Made by a program: the position numbers and the translations under genes. Below the pieces are notes generated by a model. The model made no database searches. It was not told the DNA's origin and saw only the letters and a program-made list of their open reading frames with translations. A DNA stretch of 43,311 nucleotides from a virus. Shown here one piece after another: positions 5,758 to 25,482 of the stretch (the stretch's first letter is position 1; every line of letters starts with the position of its first letter). The stretch covers positions 1-43,311 of IMG/VR virus record IMGVR_UViG_3300035086_000060; one strand, 5' to 3'.

Positions 5758-5939
5758 TATTCATCCTCATTTTCATCATCTCGATCAAGCCGAGCCGTGA
5801 AGCCAATCGCATCCTTGAGACCGCCGAGCGGCCTCAGGCGTGGCAGATATGGCCCTTCACCCGGATTGCGCATAATCGAAAGAGAACGGCGCTGTTCATT
5901 GCGCCGCGGACGTCCGCTGGGATGGGTCGGGCGCGTCAC
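5757..5939 (-). CDS. Hypothetical 60-residue coupled protein
   Basis: GTG start at 5939 overlaps the stop of the MptE-like gene (GTGA), and the TAA stop overlaps the ATG of the next glycosyltransferase gene (TAATG). Double coupling argues that this small frame is translated. The product is basic at the start and acidic at the end (ARLDRDDENEDE); MRNPGEGPYLPRLRP offers an internal ATG. No family recognised. Confidence 0.5.
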   Translation of the reverse strand: MTRPTHPSGRPRRNEQRRSLSIMRNPGEGPYLPRLRPLGGLKDAIGFTARLDRDDENEDE

Positions 5940-6751
5940 TCCGTCACCGTCATAAGCTGCGCAATCGCAGGCAGCAACCCATCTCCATGCACATGAACCG
6001 ACATGCCCTCGGTCATCAGCCCGGCCGAAATCCACCGGAAATCGTCGGCCTGGCGGATCATCCATGCGGTCGACACGAATATCCGATTGCCGACGCCGCA
6101 CTCGCGTGGCCGGTCGACACCGTTCTCGTGTTGGTCGTAGGCGTGAGCGTCGCCATCACGATAGCTCGAATCGTAGCCGAATAGGTGCACCTCACGATAG
6201 CCGAGCACGTGTACGAGCCGCATCGCACGCAAGCCGACGGTTGTCGAGCCGCCAATAAATGTCGTCGCGCGCATTTCTCTTATGCCAGATAGCCCGCCCA
6301 TCGGCGGATGCCACGTCACGACGTCATGGCTGCGACCGGCTTCGAAAAGGGACTCGTCACACTGGCTCGCGAGATAGAGCACGATATCGGGATGCAGCCC
6401 ATGCACGAAGCGCACGTTGTGTGGCCGAGCATCGAGAATGATTACCGCATCGGGCTGGATACCATGCCGCTGCAGCCACAGTCCGGCGCCGTTGAGCGCA
6501 AATATCTGGTTTCCCGCGCGCGCGTTGTCGCGGATGACTTCGAGATCGTCCTCGGCCGACGGGCCGCCGCCGACCAGGATCGCCACGTGTTCGTGTGGCT
6601 CGCATGCTTGGACAAGCGGCGTGCCGCGCTCGATTGTCTTGCGGATATTCGCATACAACACCTCGTCCGCAACATTGCAGACAAGCGGAAGCGCATCCGC
6701 GATGGGAGAGGCGGGGAAATCCCCCGCCTCCTTGATGTTTGCCTCATCCAT
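5936..6751 (-). CDS. MptE-like / DUF115 domain protein, putative glycan-related transferase
   Basis: 271 residues. VAILVGGGPSAEDDL (residues 57-70) is the glycine-rich nucleotide-binding loop of the DUF115/MptE-like family. Family members in Maf proteins glycosylate flagellin, and archaeal MptE is a pterin diphosphokinase. Downstream blocks DAVIILDARPHNVRF, TFIGGSTTVGLRAM and EVHLFGYDSSY fit the family. With the two glycosyltransferases it forms a compact cassette placed between capsid/decoration genes, suggesting modification of virion protein or surface glycan. Confidence 0.7.
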   Translation of the reverse strand: MDEANIKEAGDFPASPIADALPLVCNVADEVLYANIRKTIERGTPLVQACEPHEHVAILVGGGPSAEDDLEVIRDNARAGNQIFALNGAGLWLQRHGIQPDAVIILDARPHNVRFVHGLHPDIVLYLASQCDESLFEAGRSHDVVTWHPPMGGLSGIREMRATTFIGGSTTVGLRAMRLVHVLGYREVHLFGYDSSYRDGDAHAYDQHENGVDRPRECGVGNRIFVSTAWMIRQADDFRWISAGLMTEGMSVHVHGDGLLPAIAQLMTVTE

Positions 6752-7303: not shown

Positions 7304-8127
7304 TCAGGCGATGATCACGCCCTGAAGGAAACGGTTCGAACAGGCAATGTTGCCGGCGAAAGCGATGAGCTTCACCATGGCATCCTGGTTGACCGAGAAC
7401 CGATCCGGGTCGAGCGGGACCATGTCGCGGTCCTTGTGGGGCCGCAAGAAGATATATTCGGTGTTCAACAGGTACATGTGGGACGCCGGCGCGCCGGAGC
7501 CCGACAGCCAAGAGCCGCCGGTGCCGAGAGCACCCACGTTGCCCGCCGTCGTTCCCTGGAAGCCGCCGTCGTAGACGACATCGGCGTCCATGAACTTGAG
7601 CGAGGCGAACCCCGCCATGCCATTGCGGTCATCGCTGATCCGCTGGATGGCCTGAAGCGATTCCCAGTAGTACCGGAAGTACACGTTGTCGGCGATGAAG
7701 AGGTCCGGGCGGTCCGACTGGCGAGCCTGCGCCAGCCATGCCCGGTTCATCATCGTCTGCATCGTCGCCGCACCCGGCGTCAACGAGTTGGTCGCGAAGC
7801 TGTTGACGGAATTCTGCCAAAAGCCCCAGGTGCCCGAATCGATTCCGCCGACGACGCCGGAGTTTCCGACATCGGCCACGATCAATTGCAGGCCGCCGAT
7901 CTGCTTGCCACCGTCCGCCGTCCCCGAGGAGTAGCAGTCGTTCGACAAGTTGTTCTGCATCGTGCGCTCGGCATTGCCGATACGCGATTCGAGCAGGTTG
8001 ATCATCTGCTCCTTGCCGGAGTTCTGCAGCATCTCCAGCCCGGATATCGAGACTGCCGCCGCCGCCTGGGCGATCGGGTATTGCGCCGTCGTGAACACGT
8101 CGGACGGCGTGATGTTGAGGATGTCGT
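7304..8127 (-). CDS. Major capsid protein, exon 2 (residues 70-343)
   Basis: Downstream exon of the capsid gene. It begins with AC of a split Tyr codon followed by DILNITPSDVFTTAQYPI, then the highly conserved AVSISGLEMLQNSGKEQMINLLESRI and the family's C-terminal NTEYIFLRPHKDRDM. Joined to exon 1 the total is 1032 nt, 343 residues, the normal length for this capsid family. On the unspliced DNA this frame opens upstream with an artefactual start inside the intron. The mature protein forms the icosahedral shell. Confidence 0.9.
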
Positions 8128-8997
8128 CAGTTCTGTTACCGCTCCGGCTCTTTATCCGGGGCTTCTGCACGTCGCCGCACAGCTCAGACTATCTCTTGCC
8201 TTTCGGCCAGGGCACTCGTGGGTCCATTACTGCTTTCGCGCGGGACCTAGTCGTTACACCTTCCGCAGCCCTCGACCTTGCGGCCTACATCTGCGGCTTG
8301 GCTCGGTATTGACTTCCCTGCCTCAACTGATACAGTGAAGTTGTTCACCGACTTAACCCCGTTTTTCCCTTTGGGCTACCATGCCAAATATCAAGTCAGG
8401 TCAAGAGTTTCCATGCATGATCTGCGGTCAGATGTTCTATCGCCGTCGATCCTACGTTCAACGCGGCATCCGCAAGACATGCGGGAAGCCTGAATGCAAG
8501 AGCGCCGCGATGAGTGGCGAGAACAATCCCTTCTGGGGGAAGGTTCACGACGAAGCTACCCGCATCAAAATCCGTACCGGTCGCCGCGCGAACCCGCCAA
8601 AGAAGAAAACGGGACCGCCGAAAGGTTGGCGTCAATCTCCCGAAGCTCGGGAGAAAATGGCCGCCGCGCTTCGAACGCGATGGGCAGAAAATCGTGACGC
8701 GATGATCGCTTGCTTACCACGTGGATTAGATCACCATTTCCGCAAAGAGCCGGAACAACGTCGCTACCGCAAGAACTTCACACCGCTGCAGCGATCGGAA
8801 TGGACGGGGACGAAATGCCTTTGGTGTCCTGCGACCGAAAGCTTAACGCTCGACCATATCATTCCGGTATTCGATGGTGGAGAGAATGAGCGAACGAATG
8901 CACAAACCCTTTGCCATCCATGCAACCTTTGGAAACTCCACTACGTTGACAAGCCTCGATATCTTGCCGGTTTAGGCAGCAAGGGGGGCCAGACTTA
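8128..8997 (-). ncRNA. Group I self-splicing intron in the major capsid gene
   Basis: Exon 1 ends GGGT (U at 8998) and the intron ends with G at 8128, the U/omega-G signature of group I introns; ligation gives TATTCCGGG+TACGACATC in frame. Core elements on the minus strand: P near 8323-8312 (GAGGCAGGGAAG), Q at 8310-8297 (AATACCGAGCCAAG), R at 8260-8248 (GGTGTAACGACTA), S around 8197-8187 (AAGAGATAGTC). P7 pairs GACTA (8252-8248) with TAGTC (8191-8187); P6 pairs CCGCAG (8296-8291) with CTGCGG (8268-8263); P8 is GCC-GAAA-GGC (8207-8198); a P9-like stem CTGTGCG-GCGA-CGTGCAG (8182-8165) has a GNRA loop. P1 is short: GGGU with GCCC just inside the intron. Confidence 0.93.
8309..8336 (+). promoter_or_regulatory. 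Candidate promoter for the antisense endonuclease gene
   Basis: TTGACT (8309-8314), 16-bp spacer, TACAGT (8331-8336) on the plus strand, about 45 bp upstream of the HNH start at 8381. The sequence overlaps the P/Q ribozyme core on the other strand. It would allow endonuclease expression independent of leftward capsid transcription. Consensus match is 5/6 and 4/6. Confidence 0.4.
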
Positions 8998-8998
8998 A
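8381..8998 (+). CDS. HNH homing endonuclease with NUMOD3, antisense within the capsid intron
   Basis: 205 residues. N-terminal zinc-type cysteines C12/C15 and C34/C39; a NUMOD3 DNA-binding motif at about 45-68 (SGENNPFWGKVHDEAT); a basic linker; and a C-terminal HNH nuclease at about 146-186 with C146-x2-C149, LDHI (157-160), the GGEN and N173 pair, and LCHPCN (177-182) followed by K185. Product would cut an intronless capsid gene and drive intron homing. The gene runs opposite to the capsid gene, and its TAA stop (8996-8998) lies on the exon 1/intron border, so its 3' end doubles as the intron's P1 region. No good ribosome binding site is visible before ATG 8381. Confidence 0.9.
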   Translation: MPNIKSGQEFPCMICGQMFYRRRSYVQRGIRKTCGKPECKSAAMSGENNPFWGKVHDEATRIKIRTGRRANPPKKKTGPPKGWRQSPEAREKMAAALRTRWAENRDAMIACLPRGLDHHFRKEPEQRRYRKNFTPLQRSEWTGTKCLWCPATESLTLDHIIPVFDGGENERTNAQTLCHPCNLWKLHYVDKPRYLAGLGSKGGQT

Positions 8999-9205
8999 CC
9001 CGGAATAGCGCTTGTACGTGCCGTTTTCCGAATACTCCATCTCTTGCGCGATGGCCTGGCCGCCGTCGAAAGACTTGATCTTGCCTTTCTCCTTGAGGCG
9101 GCGAAGCAACGCGTTGTTTTTCGTGACGTTGTCCGCGAGCTTTCGACTACGATTGTAAAGCGTAGTCGTGGTGATCTCGCTCCAGTTCGTATTTGGGATC
9201 GCCAT
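8998..9205 (-). CDS. Major capsid protein, exon 1 (residues 1-69 plus first base of codon 70)
   Basis: Starts at ATG 9205 after a GGAGATTCC ribosome binding site: MAIPNTNWSEITTTTLYNRS, then KLADNVTKNNALLRRLKEKG and ENGTYKRYSG. This is the canonical N-terminus of the SU10-like major capsid family. Without splicing the frame runs nine codons into the intron and stops at 8972. With splicing after T8998 it continues YDILNITP in exon 2. The gene follows the scaffold-like gene, the usual order. Confidence 0.92.
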
Positions 9206-9238
9206 GCGGGGAATCTCCTTTCATGGCGCGGTTGATGA

Positions 9239-10486
9239 TCAGAGGCGGGACGTGGCTTCCGCCGTGTTCGCCTCCAGCTCTTCGCGCAGCGTCCGAGCCG
9301 CGGGACGGGTGCCTTGCGGGGCCTGGCCTGAGCCTGGGGCGCCGTGGACGCTCGATCCTGCTTTCTTCGCTGCTGCCGCCTTGGCCCTGGCATCGGCCGC
9401 GGACTTGGCTTGCTGAGCCTTTTCTCGGGCTGCAAGCGCTGCGTCGCGGGTCGATGGGTTTGCCCAAACGGCCTTTTCATAGAGATCCTTCAACGACGGG
9501 ACGGGGCGCTTTGCCGCAATGGCCGCCGACGCGAGCTCGGTCATGTCTGCCTCGAGCTCGTCGAAATGCGGGTGCTGCAACTCGCCCTTGTCGTCTTGGG
9601 CACTCTTGAATTTCTCGATATCGGACATGACACGCGTCTCGGCCTCGCGAGCCGCGCGCTGGGTGGATTCCATGTCCTTTTGATCGCGCGCGTCGACGCG
9701 CTGGCGCAAATCGCGGAGGGTTTCGATCACCTCCGGCGGCAGGTTGACAGCCGGAGGCGCGGGCACCTCGGCGCCGGTAGCATCAGTGCGCGGCGCGGCG
9801 GCCGCGGGCGGCCGGTAGCCCATCGCCTGTGCGACCTTGGCCAGATCGACGTTGTAGCCCTTCATCAGACCGGCAACGACGTTGACGCCGTCGCCATCCA
9901 TCAGGCGCTTCTCGACGTTGGCCCAGCCTTCGACGAGCTTCTGCTCGGTCCAGCCGCCGGCCTTCATCTTGTCGCGGTAGGGCTCGAAAATCTTGTCGAC
10001 GGGCTCGTAGCGCTTGCGGAAGTCGGCGATGTCCTGGGTTTTGCGGGTGAATGCCGCTTCCATGTCCTTGTGACGGCGCAGCAGCAATTCTTTCGCCTCT
10101 GGCGCGAGCTTGGCGAATGTCTCTTTGTCCTTGGCGGACCATTTTCCGGTGAGCTCGCCGACGGCCTTTGTCTCGGCGGCGGTTTTCTCCGCGGTCTTTT
10201 CCTCGTCGGTTTTTTCCGGCTCGGCCGCGCCTTCTTCGGTCGCCGGCTTCTTGGCCGCGGTATCGGCCGCCTTCTCGGTGCCAGTATCCGCGGCGGCTTC
10301 ATCGCCTGCAGCATGCTCGCCCTCGGCCGCGCCGTTCGTCGGCTTGGCCGCCTTCGGCTCCGGCTTATCCCTGGCCGCCGCCTCCTCTTCCGAGGTGACA
10401 ATCGCGGCGGCGAGCGCCGAACGGATATCATCGGCTGGCTGGGATTCGGCTTGTGCGCCGCCAGTGCCGTTTACGGCTTCGTCCAT
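9239..10486 (-). CDS. Putative scaffolding protein
   Basis: 415 residues, highly charged. Residues 1-115 are an Ala/Glu/Lys/Asp-rich low-complexity region; the centre (about 115-230) has W-x-A-K/D-K-x-x-F helices (GKWSAKDKETFAKLAPEAKE, FRKRYEPVDKIFEPYRDKMK); the C-terminal half is long coiled-coil helix ending in an Ala/Lys tail. Such charged helical proteins immediately upstream of the major capsid gene are assembly scaffolds or head-morphogenesis proteins. No protease motif is seen. Confidence 0.7.
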   Translation of the reverse strand: MDEAVNGTGGAQAESQPADDIRSALAAAIVTSEEEAAARDKPEPKAAKPTNGAAEGEHAAGDEAAADTGTEKAADTAAKKPATEEGAAEPEKTDEEKTAEKTAAETKAVGELTGKWSAKDKETFAKLAPEAKELLLRRHKDMEAAFTRKTQDIADFRKRYEPVDKIFEPYRDKMKAGGWTEQKLVEGWANVEKRLMDGDGVNVVAGLMKGYNVDLAKVAQAMGYRPPAAAAPRTDATGAEVPAPPAVNLPPEVIETLRDLRQRVDARDQKDMESTQRAAREAETRVMSDIEKFKSAQDDKGELQHPHFDELEADMTELASAAIAAKRPVPSLKDLYEKAVWANPSTRDAALAAREKAQQAKSAADARAKAAAAKKAGSSVHGAPGSGQAPQGTRPAARTLREELEANTAEATSRL

Positions 10487-23945: not shown

Positions 23946-24427
23946 CAGTCGCACCCGGGCCCGATCTCGCCGCTGTTGTGCGGAGCCGTGAAATCCTGCC
24001 ACCGGCGCCAGCCGGCCGGGCAATGAAAGCCCCAGTCGCGCACGCGCGGACCGGTAATGAACAACGAGAGGCTCGGCCCGGCTGTGAGCTCGACGCGGTG
24101 CGCAGACCGAGGGCCGCGGAACTTGAGATCGCCAGCCACGTATCTCTTCCGCTGATGGATGCCGCCTTGTGGAATTGTGTGCTCGGTGTATTCGCCCTGC
24201 AGCAGCAACGAGCAATTCATCCACGGATGATCATGCAAGGCGCGATCGTCGTCAGAGCGAATAAACCTATGCAGATATACATTGAAAAACCTGTTTCTCG
24301 GGATGACAAACCAGCGGCGCATGTAATCGTCGCCGGGTTTTCCGATGATAAAATCCGGCCGCCATTCGCGCTCCATCCGAAGCATGCGACCAGCGATCCA
24401 TTTGACGATACGATCTGGTGCTTTCAT
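23945..24427 (-). CDS. Cupin-like protein
   Basis: 160 residues. YLHRFIRSDDDRALHDHPWMNCSLLLQGEYTEH contains the HxH...E cupin metal set (H65, H67, E79), and HRVELTAGPSLSLFITGP is the second cupin strand pair. The pattern 'FIRSD.DRALHDHPW....LLL.G.Y.E' is widespread in phages with no proven function; a metal-dependent oxygenase or isomerase is possible. Coupled to the MT-A70 gene by a four-base overlap. Confidence 0.65.
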   Translation of the reverse strand: MKAPDRIVKWIAGRMLRMEREWRPDFIIGKPGDDYMRRWFVIPRNRFFNVYLHRFIRSDDDRALHDHPWMNCSLLLQGEYTEHTIPQGGIHQRKRYVAGDLKFRGPRSAHRVELTAGPSLSLFITGPRVRDWGFHCPAGWRRWQDFTAPHNSGEIGPGCD

Positions 24428-25482
24428 GCGGCCTCAGTGGACTTTTCGAGTATTTCGCCGGTTTCAGGGTCGACAACCTCATTACCCCAGGCATCCCATC
24501 CAGGCCGCGCCGCTCCGCGCCGATTAAGCTCGATCTTAGGTATTGTCGGATACCATGTTTCGATCAGTTTTAGCACCTCTTCCGGCTTGGCCGAGTGCTC
24601 GCCGCTGGGCGCGTCGATCACCGATTCGGGTTGAGTGCCCATGGCCGGAGCCGGGATCGCACCGCGCGTTCCGACTAGCAACAACTCGTGCACCGATCGG
24701 AACCAGTATCCGGTACCGATGCGCGACTTCCGCCAGATCGCTTGCGATTTATAGTCGAAGCCCCAAGCGCCCATGACTACGAGCGCGTGCGGCATCATCG
24801 GTCCGGTTGCCCACAGGAAAAGAACGCAGTCTCGGGCCGCGATTGAGGGCACGTCGCGCGCCGCGATCACCTCTGTGCATGAGGTGGGATAGTGGTTGTC
24901 GGGCGCGCGGTCCATGCCGGTCTCGCGCGACCACGGTTCGAAACGCCACTCCGGATCCGCAAGGATCACGCCGTATTTTCGCTTGGGCAGCGAGCATTGC
25001 ATCGCGCCGAGCACGCGCTCGTGATTCGCTCGGCGTTCCTGCTTGGTCGCGGTCGAAACGTCCTTGAGCACGTCGACTGCGCCTCGAGCGATGATGCGTT
25101 CGCGCTGGCGGCCCATCATGGCCTCAAATGCCTGCGCGGAAATTGATGCTTTCTTTTGAGCTCTACTTGAAAGATTCTTCTTTATTTTCAAGTCTGATAG
25201 CGTGATCGGAGGAGGGGAAACCGGTCCGTTGCCCGGACCGGTTTTCGGGCGCCCGCCGCGCGCGAGGCCATATGTCTCCTTTTGGGCCAGCAGCAAGAGA
25301 CCGAGTTCCCGTTCCGCTCGCTCTCTGATGTCGATCGCGTCGGCCTCCATCCCGGTGTTTCCGGCCTGTTCCGCGTAGAGGCGAGCGCGGGCCGCCCAAT
25401 CCAGAATGCTCTTGACCTCGTCAATGCCCTTTGCCTCCGCAAGAGCGGCGCGCGCGGCGTCGTAGCGGAGGAGGGAGGTCAT
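24424..25482 (-). CDS. MT-A70 family DNA N6-adenine methyltransferase
   Basis: 352 residues. The C-terminal catalytic domain carries VILADPEWRFEPWS (Asp176-Pro-Glu-Trp179), the MT-A70 DPPW motif with Glu in place of the second Pro. It continues HYPT, VLFLWATGPMMPHAL and GEHSAKPEEVLKLIETWYP, all typical. The N-terminal ~110 residues are helical (AARARLYAEQAGNTGMEADAIDIRERAERELG), a common fusion in phage and prophage members. Probably protects phage DNA or marks it for regulation. The DPEW variant is seen in related alphaproteobacterial phage enzymes to my knowledge. Confidence 0.85.
   Translation of the reverse strand: MTSLLRYDAARAALAEAKGIDEVKSILDWAARARLYAEQAGNTGMEADAIDIRERAERELGLLLLAQKETYGLARGGRPKTGPGNGPVSPPPITLSDLKIKKNLSSRAQKKASISAQAFEAMMGRQRERIIARGAVDVLKDVSTATKQERRANHERVLGAMQCSLPKRKYGVILADPEWRFEPWSRETGMDRAPDNHYPTSCTEVIAARDVPSIAARDCVLFLWATGPMMPHALVVMGAWGFDYKSQAIWRKSRIGTGYWFRSVHELLLVGTRGAIPAPAMGTQPESVIDAPSGEHSAKPEEVLKLIETWYPTIPKIELNRRGAARPGWDAWGNEVVDPETGEILEKSTEAA

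Follow-up and report, generated by a model that had tools for sequence, protein, structure and literature searches.

In the virus contig analysed here, the 43,311-nt IMG/VR record IMGVR_UViG_3300035086_000060 (the window), the gene for the major capsid protein (MCP) lies in two minus-strand pieces, which raises the question of what separates them and how a complete capsid protein could be made. According to the initial annotation, removal of a minus-strand insert of 870 nt (8128-8997), read as a group I intron, rejoins the pieces in frame to give 343 residues. This was reproduced by comparison with intact homologues and by a spliced aligner, which used a profile of 70 uninterrupted MCPs and, as its sole rule, a T as last exon base and a G as last intron base; it placed the break in codon 70, phase 1, with a length of 870 nt, i.e. 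at 8128-8997. Exon 1 (8998-9205, minus strand, 208 nt) comprises codons 1-69 and the first base of codon 70 and ends in CCGGGU (3′ end ...TATTCCGGGT). The intron (8128-8997, minus strand) begins with U (8997) and ends with G (8128), and exon 2 (7304-8127, minus strand, 824 nt including the stop) starts with ACGACATCC and runs from the rest of codon 70 to the stop codon. The joined exons give a stop-free product of 343 aa containing ...KRYSGYDILNITP..., while the exon-1 frame, if continued into the insert, encounters a stop after 77 codons and further ones beyond it. In relatives with an empty site, ...TATTCCGGCT is followed directly by ACGACATCC....

The exons of the window match the MCP profile in spliced alignment as well as uninterrupted MCPs do, and the joined protein can be aligned over its entire length with uninterrupted IMG/VR MCPs, the best of which (L002) shares 91% identity over residues 1-343. 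It matches the major head protein family PHROG 9953 (E 1e-84) and is 43% identical to the major head protein of phage Mx8 and 53.5% identical, over 99% of its length, to the MCP of Bradyrhizobium phage ppBjS10J-1. By sequence similarity over its full length, the capsid protein of the window belongs to the Mx8-type MCPs (PHROG 9953); a search of the PDB with it returned no match. Just downstream of the capsid genes, the window encodes a protein with an MptE-like domain (5936-6751, minus strand; Pfam PF01973), which is unusual in a head operon.

Group I core and its covariation

Homologues, structure and covariation strongly support the reading of 8128-8997 as a group I intron of the IA2/Twort type in the MCP gene, with exact splice sites. 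A conserved group I core with Q, R and S is present, together with a U·G pair in P1 at the 5′ splice site and a terminal intron G. The three elements were found where the initial annotation had placed them, and the GAAA-capped P8 and the GNRA-capped P9-like stem that it names are present as well. On the minus strand, P1 is predicted to form between the exon end GGGU (8998-9001) and the internal guide sequence GCCC (8986-8989); in the intron that occupies the same site in L113, P1 is GGAU/GUCC, a compensatory exon-guide change relative to GGGU/GCCC of the window. A P2-like hairpin recognised in the sequence, CUUGC...GCAAG (8963-8983), lies inside the coding region of the antisense HNH gene described below. 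The catalytic core, comprising P3-P8 and the 3′ strand of P7, spans 8185-8364. P3 joins CGGGGUU (8355-8361) to UGCCCUG (8208-8214) with six of seven pairs in the window intron; across 22 introns the helix is 96.8% paired, with both-sided changes in 5/7 pairs. P4 joins UCGGU (8347-8351) to ACCGA (8303-8307), the latter within Q (8310-8297). The R element, which ends at 8248 and contributes the 5′ strand of P7 (AACGACUA, 8248-8255), pairs with UAGUCU (8186-8191) of the S element (AAGAGATAGTC, 8197-8187) in 100% of cases in the 22 introns.

A P7.1/P7.2 extension between P7 and the 3′ strand of P3 is a group IA feature, and its presence here (GGUCC...GGACC, 8221-8247; 97.2% paired, both-sided changes in 4/5 pairs) therefore places the intron in subgroup IA. 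P8 has the form GCC-GAAA-GGC (8207-8198), P9 (8165-8182) carries a GCGA loop of the GNRA type (8175-8172), and P9.1 (8141-8162) has the loop AUAAAGAG; these three helices and P4 were included in the covariation test. The core departs slightly from consensus in that the last P3 pair is U-U and P9.1 contains one mismatch. No clear P10 was seen by eye, the only candidate being GUC/GAC, with three pairs and an offset of two bases.

A covariance model (R1) built from 18 other introns, leaving out that of the window, gave a single match in the 43-kb window, at 8185-8364 on the minus strand (138.6 bits, E 1.4e-39), and since the model did not contain the intron itself, this excludes chance for the group I core. 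R1 also recognised two of three Twort introns (56.1 and 48.7 bits), the third reaching only 14.9 bits (E 0.02), and the LittleE intron (24.9 bits, E 2e-5); in the set of uninterrupted MCP loci that was scanned, within L002-L050, it had no match. The Rfam model RF00028, suggested in the initial annotation as a check, failed to detect the intron at its gathering cut-off of 50: there was no match in the window, nor in 8000-9100 at E<=10, and on the isolated core (8110-8400) the model aligned through the P3-P9 region with 23.5 bits (E 4e-4). As controls, the three Twort orf142 introns scored 63.6-100.9 bits and the LittleE intron, for which splicing is proven, 30.7 bits, again below 50, while two relatives of the window intron (L113, codon 70, 51.1 bits; L041, codon 67, 51.9 bits) passed the cut-off. 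Because the proven LittleE intron also falls below it, Rfam is insensitive to this intron branch, and the low score is a sensitivity problem; passing the cut-off does not define a group I intron biologically.

A DNA pattern from the intron core matched 29 IMG/VR contigs; BLASTn of the window intron against phages gave short core matches only, and a tRNA search found none. In a core alignment of 22 introns, the fold read from the window intron (P3-P9.1) was paired in 94.9% of cells, compared with 75.7% in shuffles, and both-sided changes occurred in 39 of its 56 pairs. Compensatory cells numbered 210 as against 57.6 in shuffles, none of 500 shuffles being as high, and pairing dropped to 32-38% when the structure was slid along the alignment. 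From the alignment alone, RNAalifold recovered P3, P4, P6, P6a, P7.1, P8, P9 and P9.1 and missed P7 and the variable P5 and P6b; P7 is absent from its drawing because it is the pseudoknot partner of P3.

The antisense HNH gene and a promoter-like site

The initial annotation had overlooked a gene on the opposite strand that takes up the intron's 5′ half, in the stretch separating P2 from P3. It encodes a predicted homing endonuclease of 205 aa with NUMOD3 and HNH regions (8381-8998, plus strand), identified by PHROG HNH families and by three domains above the Pfam cut-offs (PF07460, PF14279 and PF01844); in alignment with relatives, the catalytic and zinc-binding residues LDHIIP...N...CxxCN are intact. 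Its stop codon TAA takes one base from the end of the exon and two from the start of the intron, so that the gene runs, on the opposite strand, across P2, P1 and the 5′ splice site. Homologous antisense genes occupy the same place in the codon-70 introns of L154 and L200 (59-63% aa identity), and pN between these genes and that of the window (0.25-0.28) is well below pS (0.78-0.86), which identifies the open reading frame as a real protein gene under purifying selection. An IMG/VR locus search with the HNH protein found no full relative because its patterns were too exact; the relatives were found via the core DNA pattern and the MCP loci. Further antisense HNH introns lie at codons 62 (L182) and 67 (L041), and the codon-13 introns (L094, L095, L111) carry a different antisense HNH-like protein with a DHII...N motif seen by eye, for which a Pfam search with the L111 protein gave no match. 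The antisense reading frame extends into the exon by about 2 (L111), 14 (L094) and 26 (L154) codons. With an antisense homing-endonuclease gene as the main content of the insert, selfish mobility is the leading explanation for its presence.

Rather than depending on the late transcript, the HNH gene is probably transcribed from a promoter of its own. A promoter scan of 7900-9300 yielded one promoter-like site, on the plus strand: TTGACT-16-TACAGT with a TG (8309-8336), a candidate with a 9/12 match situated 45 nt upstream of the HNH start, at which no recognisable Shine-Dalgarno sequence was found. Shuffled sequence gives such a match 0.5 times on average, and the site alone therefore means little. 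The conserved Q/P5 sequence, read on the complementary strand, supplies its candidate -35, and its -10 lies within the P5 loop. At the same spacing (16-17), L200, L154 and L182 have the -10 sequences TATAAA, TATAGT and TATGAT, respectively, and L041 has none. At this spacing, the best -10 reaches a score of 4.4/6 in the five introns at codons 62-70 that carry an antisense HNH gene, compared with 2.6/6 in other introns (p = 0.0017, a post hoc value from five partly related introns); as the comparison was made after seeing the sequences, and on few related introns, we treat it as a lead only. TATAAT occurs 6 nt before the antisense HNH ATG in L111 and L095 (codon 13), a proximity that would give nearly leaderless messages, and further upstream in L094.

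We tentatively consider, as a possibility that is rather doubtful at present, that these introns form a distinct class in which an HNH gene antisense to and 5′ of the core is expressed early from a promoter inside the Q/P5 region and the enlarged P5 loop of the ribozyme. If this were true, the endonuclease would be expressed independently of late capsid transcription, with mutual interference between the sense and antisense transcripts. For an element that parasitises a late gene, a promoter-like sequence located within the ribozyme suggests a testable route to early expression.

Codon 70 alleles and other insertion positions

Codon 70, phase 1, is found in three states among relatives: empty; occupied by introns lacking an open reading frame, of 257 nt (L113) or 279 nt (L091, L096, L098 and L099); and occupied by introns with an antisense HNH gene, of 870 nt in the window, 853 nt in L154 and 843 nt in L200. 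Since the same site is seen empty, ORF-less and endonuclease-filled, the stages of a homing cycle become directly comparable. The initial annotation had proposed that capsid breaks at other positions in homologues would speak against the intron. Such breaks exist, beside those at the codon-70 position, and they leave the intron unrefuted because they themselves come with group I cores or motifs.

Spliced alignment of relatives gave about 18 insertion positions, at codons 13 (placed by pattern), 21, 27, 53, 58, 59, 60, 62, 64, 66, 67, 69, 70, 106, 126, 138, 143 and 319. R1 supports 13-14 of these; the weaker sites at codons 53, 59, 66 and 319 have U/G boundaries, accompanied at part of the sites by group I-like motifs, but no solid R1 match. 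Exact mapping with the spliced aligner superseded the first rough break positions in L033 and L041. Among the best 80 loci, from a family with at least 350 loci in IMG/VR, introns occur in 10 of the 73 viral loci in which the N-terminus is visible (14%, a rough rate given this sample); the survey query was the exon-2 protein, which favours neither the presence nor the absence of introns before codon 71. On the evidence of these sequences, the MCP family is an intron hotspot, with up to three predicted introns per gene. The codon-27 intron is also present in two near-identical contigs from bacterial genome assemblies (L118 and L119). L016 and L017, considered as interrupted MCPs, were rejected, as they show a frame change only, without an intron. 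Their frame shift (L016 517-618; L017 5001-5102), like that of L135 and L136, lies near codon 29-34 without an insertion and may be a sequencing error, a pseudogene or a frameshift.

Three families of endonuclease, GIY-YIG, HNH and LAGLIDADG, are encoded in the MCP introns. The GIY-YIG genes (codons 27 and 60) lie in sense orientation inside the P8 loop. Two capsid genes contain three putative self-splicing introns each, L096 at codons 27, 70 and 319 and L175 at codons 27, 59 and 106, some of which carry GIY-YIG or LAGLIDADG genes. An antisense LAGLIDADG-type gene in the codon-64 intron of L160 (motif by eye, no Pfam match) and a sense LAGLIDADG-type gene in the codon-59 intron of L175 (Pfam LAGLIDADG_3) indicate that orientation is not strictly tied to enzyme family.

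This range of positions and the three endonuclease families occur in one capsid gene family, mostly of uncultured phages. Phage group I introns are usually discussed for genes of nucleotide metabolism and DNA replication, and capsid cases are few (LittleE, Tuc2009). Should early expression of the antisense endonuclease hold true, the capsid gene, with its about 18 insertion positions, would be the main target of intron-mediated competition between these phages. Such capsid genes are easily mis-annotated as fragments, since several of the introns escape Rfam and an ORF finder reports the gene in pieces.

Proposed mechanism, alternatives and precedents

We consider it very likely (probability about 0.95) that the insert, in codon 70 of a tailed phage's major capsid gene, is a group IA2 intron that is mobile and splices itself and that carries an antisense HNH homing-endonuclease gene. 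In group I splicing, a guanosine attacks the 5′ splice site held in P1, and the exons are then ligated after the terminal G of the intron. For the window phage, we propose the following hypothetical sequence of events, in which (i) the intron RNA would fold within the late minus-strand transcript; (ii) the end of exon 1, GGGU, would pair with the guide GCCC to form P1; (iii) a guanosine bound in P7 would attack the 5′ splice site; and (iv) the released exon 1 would attack the junction behind the terminal G (8128), so that the exons are ligated and the 343-aa capsid protein can be made. In homing, HNH enzymes introduce a nick or a break into an allele that lacks the intron, and recombination then copies the intron into it. 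In co-infecting relatives whose capsid gene lacks the intron, the HNH product of the window may likewise cut or nick that gene near codon 70, whereupon its repair would copy the intron in. The proposal in the initial annotation that splicing gates virion production follows only in a weak sense, in that unspliced mRNA would yield a fragment of 77 residues.

Several other explanations have to be weighed against this reading. The intron might be degenerate and no longer splice, the capsid gene being dead or the phage relying on another capsid copy; the lost P3 pair (U-U) and the P9.1 mismatch would fit such decay. However, all elements of the catalytic core are intact and score 138.6 bits with a model of relatives, both exons are open and colinear with intact MCPs, which they equal in their profile match, and the HNH gene is still under selection. 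The P9.1 mismatch recurs in the codon-70 intron of L113, and overall we regard degeneration as very unlikely. That a free-standing HNH endonuclease gene entered the capsid gene alone, with incidental intron features, is suggested by the extent of the gene, which spans most of the insert on the other strand. Yet the core, the internal guide sequence and the 3′ end are present and covary, and ribozymes without an endonuclease gene occupy the same site (257 nt in L113, 279 nt in L091), which contradicts this explanation and makes it highly improbable.

An assembly chimera, in which the intron of another phage was joined into the contig, might be considered because the record is a virus contig. 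It is scarcely plausible, since the frame is broken and rejoined exactly at a site that holds introns in at least six other contigs, and P1 pairs with the phage's own exon. An intein, translational bypass or a frameshift product, in place of an RNA intron, would account for a split gene and for nothing further in the data; it is rejected because of the several in-frame stops in the insert, the first after 77 codons, and the insert contains no intein domain (Pfam) and does contain a group I core, so that this is the least probable of the explanations weighed here.

For the favoured reading, a mobile group IA2 intron with an antisense endonuclease gene, the closest precedent is mycobacteriophage LittleE (JF937101), whose capsid gene contains a group I intron with an endonuclease on the bottom strand and for which splicing was demonstrated by RT-PCR and protein N-terminal sequence (PMC3706429). 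There, splicing was presumed to be extremely efficient because the capsid protein is made in large amounts (PMC3706429). Both introns are of similar size (819 bp in LittleE), lie in the major capsid gene, encode a bottom-strand homing endonuclease and share the exon-end U and intron-end G. In contrast, the LittleE endonuclease is of the LAGLIDADG_3 family (Pfam) and lies 3′ of the core (L114: core 1387-1537, gene 1565-2098), whereas the HNH-NUMOD3 gene of the window is found on the 5′ side of the core, where it extends over P2, P1 and the 5′ splice site. The capsid proteins differ as well, that of LittleE being of the HK97-gp5 type with 478 residues (mature) and a protease, and that of the window an Mx8-type MCP of 343 residues.

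The orf142 introns of Staphylococcus phage Twort (AF132670) resemble that of the window in being IA2 introns with P7.1/P7.2, and several of them interrupt one structural gene, as in the MCP family, although the gene is a different one and the core sequences are only distantly alike. The I-PfoP3I intron of cyanophage Pf-WMP3 (PMC3428280) is likewise of type IA2, encodes an HNH endonuclease and interrupts an essential phage gene; unlike here, that gene encodes DNA polymerase and the open reading frame covers the P6a-P7 region, 3′ of the HNH position in the window. Antisense homing endonuclease genes are known from nuclear rDNA introns (Didymium I-DsqI; Dir.S956-2; PMC9548176), for which an own, possibly internal, promoter was proposed, with a potential internal promoter in one of them (PMC9548176). 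These differ in their eukaryotic rDNA location and His-Cys box enzymes, and I-DsqI belongs to a group IE intron with its gene in P9. In the open-access literature searched, neither HNH genes lying antisense across P1-P2 nor this capsid-gene hotspot were found to be described. While the capsid intron with an antisense endonuclease thus has its precedent in LittleE, the hotspot and the P5 promoter-like site are fresh leads.

R1 cores were also noticed at other places in phages. In Exiguobacterium phage vB_EauM-23 (L083), a core (1697-1851, 57.1 bits) lies between the genes for the terminase large subunit and the portal protein and adjoins an annotated 'NHN endonuclease', the intron itself being unannotated. 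In Erwinia phage VL73 (L084), a core (1869-2015, 78.1 bits) separates two annotated DNA polymerase fragments, and a small minus-strand 'hypothetical protein' is probably part of the intron. Elsewhere in the window, a protein encoded at 24424-25482 (minus strand) matches both the phage DNA methyltransferase family PHROG 359 and PHROG 21315, a family of unknown function.
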